A stretch of 21,700 nt of DNA from a virus, in the IMG/VR virus record IMGVR_UViG_3300005617_000715, positions 1 to 21,700 of that record, one strand, 5' to 3'. A program made the translations under genes and the position numbers. Below, piece after piece: positions 1-5,778 of this stretch. The notes beneath the pieces are model-generated. The model was not told where the DNA came from and searched no databases. It saw only the letters and a list, made by a program, of their open reading frames with translations. Numbering within the stretch: position 1 is the stretch's first letter; each line of letters begins with the position of its first letter.

Positions 1-3000
1 GCTATATTGCGTGTCTGATATGCCTTCCCTTGAAGTAGCCCGCGCACGCAGAGCGTATTGGTCATCAATCAAATCTTGGGCTTCTTCCTCCGTTTTGAAC
101 TTCATCGCATCCGCAGGATTACCCGTCCAGTTGCTGAGGTAATCCATGCTCCGGGGATTATTGAACCTCCAGAAATAAATGCGGTGCCCATCGTTGTGGC
201 TAAGGTAAGAAATTGCAAGAGGTCTGCTCAAGCTCGTCAAATAATCCTTCGCACTAATCGCATCCGGGTCTTGCGCCTCCGTCTGTGGCCTTTTCGTTGT
301 GCTGAAATTCAACACTTCCTTCACTCGATTAGGATCATCCTTATCTTCACAAGCGCCTTTGAACTGTAAACTGTATGCCGTAAATTGCGGTTTCACTCCT
401 CCGGGGCCGAAAATGTCCAGTCCGGCGAGTTTGTCAGCAACACCTTTCTTGACGTAAGCAATCGTGCAATGCGGGTTGTACGTGGGAAACTTATCCTCGT
501 TTGGAATTGCCGCCTTGATACGCTTGTTCAAATCGTGCAACCACGGTGATTCGATACCAAGCTTGAGCACGTCGTATTCTGGATTCGTGTTGAATAGCGA
601 AAGCTTCTCAAAGAAAATTGGAAACGGTCGCGTAGTCGCCATAATCTCCCGAAGCTCCTGTGGCGCATCATTCACGGTGAGACCGTATTTCACGGTGATG
701 TGGGGCTCTAGTTCGCGACCCATGGTGTCGTCACCCTCCTTCGAGTACAGCCATTCATCCGGCACGTTTATTTTGCCCCAGTTCACTACAAAGTCAGCAA
801 GCTCGCGGGGCAGCGAAATCAGCGTCACTGCAAACTTGTAGCCGCTCTCCATCAATAACGCCTCATTCAGTGAGGTTGACTCGTATACAGGCTCCACATT
901 CGGGTGACCCTTAAAATTTGCAAAAGTATCACCCGGCAGGTGATAGCGCGAATACGCGCTCCAGCGCATGTTATCACTACGCTCTGCCATGAAAGCTTCC
1001 GCTTCGGGACGTGTTGAAAAACGCTTTGCATCTTTCGCTACCGGTGTAAAACTGACCGGGCCATACGGAGCAAAATCAATCCAGTAGAGCTTCTGACCCG
1101 CCACGTCCTGAGTGATCACAAACTGCGGCGTCAAACCCATAGCCATCGATTTCGGATCAACCACATCTGGTTCCTGATCCTCCAGCAGTGACTCGCCCAG
1201 ACCCGGTGCAGGTGGCTCAGACTGGCCTTTCGCGTAAGCATCCCACGCTTCCTTGCTCGTTTTCTCGGGATGCTCCTGTTTCAACTGCTTCCACTGGGTT
1301 CCCGTCATCCTAACTGTCGCCCCATTAGGATAGTGTTCGCTGTATACTTGATAATGACCTACCTCCCTGTCTTCAGGTGTAGCACCAAACAGATCGGATT
1401 GATGCGGATCAACATGCTCACGCGCTGGCATCGGCTTCAGTTCCGAAAGTAACTCCGAAAGGCTGTCCGCCACGACCTGTTTGTCGTCGTCCAAACTACC
1501 GTGGTATTCCTCGTGCGCTTCCAACTTCAGCGCGTTTGTCGGAAGGTCGTCAATCGACCCGTCGTACGGATCGTTGCCCTCTTCTTCGTACTCGGTCATC
1601 CATTGGCGAATCTTTTTCCACTTGATGAAGTACGCTATTCTCTCCTTGCCATTAACTGTCTTCCACACTCCCTCCGACCCAAAAGCTTCCTCGACCACTC
1701 CCAAGTAGCCTTTGAAATAAGCGTCCGTATAAATCGTTTCCAGTGCGCGCCGGGCTGCCTGCTGAAGCGCCTCCACGATGTCTTCAAGATCACCCCCATC
1801 CTGATAGTCCTCGTAATCGTCCAGAATGTTTTCGATGTCCTTGTCAGTATACTCGTCAACCACTTGCGGTGTCAGCAGCAGGGGTTCGTTATCCACAAGG
1901 ATATTACGCCCCACCAACGCTTTGCGAATTAACGCGTAGTGCTCAGGAGCCAAATACCCAGTAATGTCGCGCACATCCATTTTCTGTTCCCACAGAAAAC
2001 TGAACCAGTCGTGCGTTTCATTTGCGAATATCTCCTCAGCGGCGCGCCGGTGACTGTGTCGATGGTCATCCTTGAACAGCGCAGCAAGATCGTTGTAATC
2101 GGAGAACGTAATCCAGACGCCGTCCCGATTCATCAAGTCCATCGGATACCGAAAGAATTTTGCCGCCATCTTAACATCGCCCTCCATGGCGGCTTGAATC
2201 GCGATGCTATTGTCCATAGCGGCATCTGATCCCGGACTCATCCGGCGCAGATAACCCTTCACCATGCCAAGGCCGCCGAAGCCGAACACGAATTTGAAGT
2301 ACGTCTCAAAGTCCTTCCGCATTCGCTTCTTGAAAAACTGGGCCAGCACCTGACCGGCTTTGACACCCTCCGGCTTTGTCTTCACCAGTTCGTCTGGTGG
2401 AATCGTATACCAGTGCCCATTTTTGCTGGCTTCCTGAATCAAAGCGTCATGCTGACGAATCAACCATGCCTCACCCTTGGTGGGAATAATCAAAAACAGC
2501 GGGCCTGACTCCACGTAATGATCCCAACTATCGTGCGAGCGCCCATTACCCATCGGGAAACCGTACTTCTCCAACGTGGCGAAAGTGTGCGGCATGAAGA
2601 TGCGCAGCGTCTCATCTGAGTACAGTTCCTTGCCTGAGTCATACCCGCCGTGAATCACCCACTTTTTGTAATCGGTGCCCAATTCGTCTTCCGGCGGCAA
2701 CGGCTGTCCGCGCTGGCGTGCTTCATTAACCAGCAGTGGTTCGATCTGGACGCCGGACTTTTTATCGGCGGGCAACGCCGATGTGCTCTCGCGCTGAGCT
2801 TCCTCCGCCGAAGCAAACACTTTGGCTTTTTCCTTCTGCACCCACCACCCATGCGGATGGCTGTTGAAATAGTATTTTCGCGGGCCGTCAATAATCACCG
2901 ATACAAAACCACCACCCATGCCGCCAAGGTAAGCACGCGGATCAACGGCATCCGGGTCAGCGTCCTCAGCGACCCGGCGCTTTATATTTTCGATGAACGG

Positions 3001-5778: not shown

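Follow-up and report, generated by a model that had tools for sequence, protein, structure and literature searches.

The window analysed here is an entire virus record of 21.7 kb, one end of which is occupied by a giant gene on the minus strand (1..5778). Its frame of 1,926 residues begins with an ATG at position 5778 and runs to base 1 without a stop; the contig end cuts the frame at this point, and the C-terminus of the putative polyvalent protein is missing. The coordinates proposed in the initial annotation are correct, the strand being minus. The frame is truly coding, since its codon-position differences from the closest relative (26/16/67 across 133 codons) show an excess at the third position. 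The other genes of the window include those for a T4-type portal, a gp25-like baseplate protein, a UvsW-like helicase and a replication initiation protein. A related portal is found in 27 loci, some of them on contigs of 110–225 kb; the kin of this phage are large phages. A separate gene (11936-13153, minus) encodes a 405-residue protein of glycosyltransferase-like appearance with a CxxC-type cysteine insert and without a good PHROG match. PADLOC detected nothing.

The 2H phosphoesterase domain

Among domains known from polyvalent proteins and beyond them (MPTase, ArdC-N, ART and MuF belong to the former), the only Pfam match of the giant protein is a 2H phosphoesterase (residues 1645–1826; 301..846, minus; PF13563, E 4.4e-10), with HxT motifs at H1693 and H1770. 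Assignment to the 2H superfamily follows from the PF13563 score above the cut-off, the invariance of both HxT histidines (alignment A4) and the fold match. The model of the domain (pLDDT 86.7) matches LigT, CPDase, YjcG and Usb1 first among PDB structures, and Acb1 later. The 2H fold and the two HxT motifs are common to this domain, to Acb1 and to the LigT/CPDase phosphoesterases. Identity with the anti-CBASS protein Acb1 is not supported: the Acb1 family match in Pfam reaches 14.3 bits against a cut-off of 27, and the LigT, CPDase and Usb1 structures fit better. The domain may act in RNA end repair, or in counter-defence via removal of a signalling nucleotide. The initial annotation had pointed out that proteins of this type often carry counter-defence activities; the 2H domain alone speaks for it, but the nearest solved folds are RNA phosphodiesterases of the LigT/CPDase type, ahead of Acb1.

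Among viral structures, the one that fits the 2H domain best is a piece of another very long phage protein. Two further architectures were observed in other phages. The 898-residue protein L061:6600-9293 (IMGVR_UViG_3300003322_000675) consists of a portal followed by a 2H phosphoesterase and a MuF-like domain. The very long protein L062:6201-10106 (frame of 2419 aa) includes 2H, CCA-adding enzyme and fungal-tRNA-ligase-like phosphodiesterase domains, and has the look of a tRNA repair set united in a single chain.

The giant protein could be a cytoplasmic or tail-associated multidomain enzyme (e.g., for RNA repair) made in the infected cell, with the modules described below binding nucleic acid or a partner. 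The location of its gene after the helicase and replication-initiation genes, and not amid head genes, is in agreement with such a role, as is the fusion of some distant 2H relatives to CCA-adding enzyme and cyclic phosphodiesterase domains (L062). The role is nevertheless considered unlikely in view of the targeting-like LLE↓A peptides with which stand-alone relatives start (the arrow denotes a predicted cut here and below), the fusion of a related 2H domain to a portal and MuF (L061), and the large structural-type protein encoded by the next gene in relatives.

The repeated module and its flanking segments

The giant protein contains a diverged module of ~75 residues opened by the motif DPDxVDPxxYL, present in six clear copies, one weak N-terminal copy and one bare opener. 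The copies were evaluated by a leave-one-out profile against 50 shuffled copies of the giant protein, the top score of which was 7.3 bits. The clear copies, all on the minus strand, are m2 (residues 301–392; 4603..4878; 16 bits), the tandem m4 (762–834; 3277..3495; 20 bits), m5 (845–923; 3010..3246; 44 bits) and m6 (939–1014; 2737..2964; 24 bits), then m7 (1535–1613; 940..1176; 21 bits) between segment C and the 2H domain, and m8 (1835–1912; 43..276; 34 bits) directly past the 2H domain. The divergent copy m1 (residues 1–75; 5554..5778, minus), which starts MADPDNIDPAQYF with the opener at the translation start, scores 6.4 bits, below the shuffle maximum; it is plausibly genuine, though not independently significant. 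Behind the opener m3 (residues 411–428; 4495..4548, minus) the module body is absent (at most 4 bits). Three tandem modules had been reported before and are borne out at residues 762–1014, while the earlier count of seven modules holds for six solid copies, with one copy weak and one further opener bare.

No significant match of the module was found in Pfam, PHROGs, NCBIfam or PDB sequences, which agrees with the initial view that no named domain has this opening. A weak PHROG match (phrog_5247) covers 25 residues only, with E 5.9e-6 for the whole protein and 0.037 for a single module. Direct searches of viral contigs with the whole giant protein or with the tandem returned no relatives of the module, tblastn of one module against 50,697 phage genomes gave nothing notable, and the module profile had no significant match in any of the related phage loci compared. 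A suspected homologue in protein L071 of phage G007 was dismissed after the profile comparison failed beyond the opener. Structure prediction from six copies is of low confidence (pLDDT 49.5) and gives hints only of two strands and two helices, one of them short and the other C-terminal. The most likely function of the module is that of a small packing or target-binding domain.

Homologues of the segments flanking the modules occur in three phages, the near-identical G006 and G007 being counted as one. Segment A (residues 101–292; 4903..5478, minus) is 73% identical in the closest relative G001 (L042), where it runs straight into the start of segment B, m2 being absent. Segment B (431–755; 3514..4488, minus) is conserved in L039 and L040, each with one protein of ~980 residues in which B (window residues 431–766) is joined almost directly to segment C (from ~1000–1043; in the window, residues 1043–1463, 1390..2652, minus). 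The three modules m4–m6 are inserted in the window where L039 and L040 join B to C. The 2H domain, a separate gene in both L039 and L040, is joined in the window via m7 and followed by m8. Because relatives keep the flanks without the modules, the modules are evidently additions at segment borders. In G001 an unrelated N-terminal stretch of ~60 residues (MRIKLEQRWIDRLCQLPESGMGYQ...; L042:714-938, minus) takes the place of m1, as though an exchange of the first cassette had occurred.

No database match was obtained for the unassigned segments of the giant protein, and a scan of bacterial and archaeal genomes revealed no relatives of segment C. In L039 and L040 an HExxH segment past the 2H domain was seen by eye, without a Pfam match; the window ends before that point. 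Directly past the 2H gene, L040 encodes a protein of 2,127 residues (L040:7525-13905), its domains being of the PA-IL-like lectin and PhoD-like phosphatase types.

The existence of the same junctions in relatives without modules would also be expected if the modules were in-frame selfish insertions without a function for the phage, like the Rickettsia palindromic elements. This explanation is very improbable: pairwise identity to one copy is ~23–31% and the composition resembles that of the host gene, so the modules are old and kept. Moreover, they are located at borders only, never within segments, and the pairing of opener and upstream site considered below recurs ahead of unrelated domains.

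Candidate cleavage sites and targeting-like starts

The protease gp21 of phage T4 cleaves after (L/I)-x-E (PMC9026906), and its homologues in giant phages do so after (S/A)-x-E or just after a Glu (PMC9026906, PMC10052503). In the giant protein, x-x-E↓(S/A/D) stands ahead of nearly every module start or segment junction, a motif similar to the (L/I)-x-E recognised by the T4-type prohead protease. The candidate sites (all minus) are IGE↓S before m2 (4876..4887), LGE↓S at the end of segment B and start of m4 (3493..3504), HQE↓S before m5 (3247..3258), VAE↓D before m6 (2962..2973), VNE↓A past m6 and before segment C (2719..2730), LGE↓S and LLE↓D before m7 (1177..1200), LNE↓A together with LME↓S ahead of the 2H domain (844..870), and QTE↓A past the 2H domain and before m8 (274..285). 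The position of such sites is kept in relatives and the sequence is not: QTE↓A corresponds to VTE↓A in L040 and MHE↓A in L039, and LGE↓S at the B/C border to LGE↓A in L039 and KFE↓S in L040. The site before segment C likewise has a counterpart in L039, LNE↓A.

Several comparisons indicate that the sites are concentrated at borders. The pattern [LIM]xE[SAD] lies in linkers in 8 of 14 cases, the linkers holding 39 of 172 Glu (Fisher p 0.004; this test was not blind, as the linker borders were drawn with the modules already known). An x-x-E[SADGN] motif is located within ~11 residues ahead of 6/7 internal openers against a background of 14% (p 6e-5), and LxE precedes the 2H domain in five of ten homologues against a background of 8% (p 7e-4). 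The cleavage motif is, however, short and common; HQE, VAE and QTE, with P3 other than L or I, are off the T4 rule, and some [LI]xE[SAD] motifs also occur inside folded segments of the giant protein.

These reservations leave room for a polyvalent protein that is packaged but uncut, in which the modules would be folded spacer or binding beads, the acidic stretches flexible linkers, and the whole chain would be injected like the virion RNA polymerase of phage N4, which is packaged without cutting (PMC5512222). Acidic Ser-rich linkers often yield E-S or E-A pairs (background of 14–21%), and several border sites are without L/I at P3. We regard this possibility as distinctly the weaker one, since border sites hold their place across relatives while the flanks change, and since the same site is found both at the starts of stand-alone genes and, as LxE, ahead of the 2H domain at the frequency given above.

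Relatives in which 2H is a gene of its own have the starts MTPFGLARSLLE↓AEYSYS and MNATRLTDLLLE↓KAYSYS. The counterpart in the window, LNE↓ALLME↓SGYKF, is internal to the fusion; LLE↓A, N-terminal where 2H has its own gene in L040, is matched here by an internal site. This correspondence is, in our reading of the sequences, the most telling indication that the border sites may be cut. Similar starts recur in the phage family, e.g., MKADVIAFKLLE↓ADG, MTAPQQIVGRLLE↓DEVNPQDYIDAL and MSKASQVVDSLLE↓AEPDFDPVDFV. The pattern M-x(n)-(V/I/L/A/F)-xx-LLE↓A occurs at 18 of 1150 first Met residues in the family and at 12 of 4156 internal ones (p 6e-6); plain binning of LxE sites along the G007 proteins reveals a slight N-terminal excess only, and the anchored pattern is needed. 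The LLE↓A starts resemble the capsid-targeting sequences of T4, N-terminal peptides removed by gp21 (PMC9026906, PMC10229621). A targeting-like N-terminal peptide ending in (L/I)xE is present in the stand-alone relatives; the giant protein itself has none and starts with the opener MADPDNIDPAQYF, a point against the precursor scheme proposed below. An opener at the start codon without a preceding site is what would be predicted if the opener begins a released piece.

Outside the window, the strict opener was found in four family proteins (L032, L069, L071 and L072) from two related phages, each time directly behind x-x-E(S/A/D), a pairing expected by chance at ~4e-4 from the 14% background. 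The strict pattern gave 15 matches, including overlaps and one duplicated window locus, against a mean of 1.65 and a maximum of 5 in shuffles. A loose combination of opener and site was dropped because its 15 matches were close to what shuffles gave (a mean of 8.6, with 15 as the maximum); with the looser opener, 7 of 30 matches outside the giant protein have the site. In two of the four cases the opener follows an N-terminal LLE↓ start, in keeping with its being the beginning of a mature piece.

Further proteins of the family with the same elements were noted. L071:7326-8438 (minus) encodes a protein of 371 residues, zinc-ribbon-like at its start and with openers at two internal borders (LGE↓S / IGE↓S), the second opener being looser and standing behind FIGE↓S; the protein is a candidate for a second, smaller precursor in the same family. 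The 2H/metallopeptidase protein of G004 includes an insertion of ~100 residues after AAQE↓SADSVDPQRYV (approx. L039:11540-11870) that is absent in L040 and appears to be another domain added behind the same header.

The enzyme that could cut at these sites is encoded in the family. G007 and G012 encode both a Peptidase_S77 (gp21) protease and a Gp23-like major capsid protein; the protease was found in these relatives, the portals of which are 68% and 52% identical, and not on the 21.7-kb window fragment. In L067:7485-9179 and L068:5785-7428 the gp21-like prohead protease is apparently fused to a scaffold-like C-terminal half in an ORF of ~550 residues, adjoining the Gp23-like capsid gene.

The giant protein as a putative head-cargo precursor

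The giant protein is probably a polyvalent head-interior precursor, targeted to the prohead and cut at the module borders, the products of which are packaged and injected. According to this scheme, the precursor would be taken into the prohead and cut after Glu at the borders by a gp21-like protease. The pieces released would be the modules, segments A–C, the 2H enzyme and, from beyond the contig end, probably a metallopeptidase; they would remain in the head and pass into the host together with the DNA. The 2H enzyme could then act early in infection, its substrates being RNA ends, fragments of tRNA or a signalling nucleotide. The DPDxVDPxxYL opener would be the conserved start of a released piece, perhaps aiding recognition by the protease or scaffold. 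The initial annotation had offered hinges, protease processing sites and docking elements as roles of the Asp-Pro motif; protease processing is favoured, but with the predicted cut just upstream of the opener and not within it. The suggestion of a multidomain injected protein is in turn supported indirectly, by the 2H domain, the T4-type head and the targeting-like N-termini of relatives.

A more tentative extension, somewhat short of an even chance, is that the x-x-E site and the opener together form a portable cargo header in this phage family, behind which domains could be added, moved or split and then packed into the prohead and released, the opener serving as a packing or protease-recognition tag. 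The phage would in that case operate a genuine polyprotein system for its head cargo.

Polyvalent proteins (Iyer et al. 2017, PMC5512222) are likewise very long multidomain phage proteins with enzyme domains tied to intergenomic conflict. The giant protein comprises at least two distinct domains in one chain, as A, B, C, 2H and the modules are separable by homology. The commonest domain of polyvalent proteins is the HExxH metallopeptidase (PMC5512222), and relatives here carry the metallopeptidase-like HExxH segment. The polyprotein analogy has already been made for polyvalent proteins, release being credited mainly to embedded peptidase domains (PMC5512222). In the window protein, by contrast, prohead-protease-like sites recur at the borders, and a repeated module begins with a fixed opener. 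We infer that it belongs with the polyvalent proteins and works like a head-cargo polyprotein, with cleavage, packaging and injection as predicted steps.

The internal proteins IPI-III and Alt of T4 have a short N-terminal peptide that ends in (L/I)-x-E and is cut by gp21 (PMC9026906, PMC3012670), and the phage family considered here shares with T4 the protease and capsid protein types. In T4, each internal protein has its own gene and one cut, whereas many pieces are predicted from one chain in the window. Head and ejection proteins of SPN3US and phiKZ are cut by gp245 and gp175, respectively, after A-x-E or S/A-x-E (PMC10052503; PMC9026906), with Ser favoured at P1' in SPN3US and several cuts within one propeptide. 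Those cuts remove propeptides and free no series of modules, in contrast to what is proposed for the window protein. The novel elements are the repeated module, the header made up of site and opener, and the evidence for the capsid protease as the likely cutter.

Host defences meet injected head proteins before any other phage product; in T4-like phages, such proteins are for the most part known from single genes. If the proposed scheme is true, the giant protein would represent an unusually clear polyprotein strategy in a phage, and such a precursor, processed by the capsid protease, would account for the way in which large phages bring many cargo proteins under one targeting event. The header (x-x-E followed by DxVDPxxYL) would then find cargo in phages without any sequence match, and a defined set of unassigned proteins would become testable as injected effectors.
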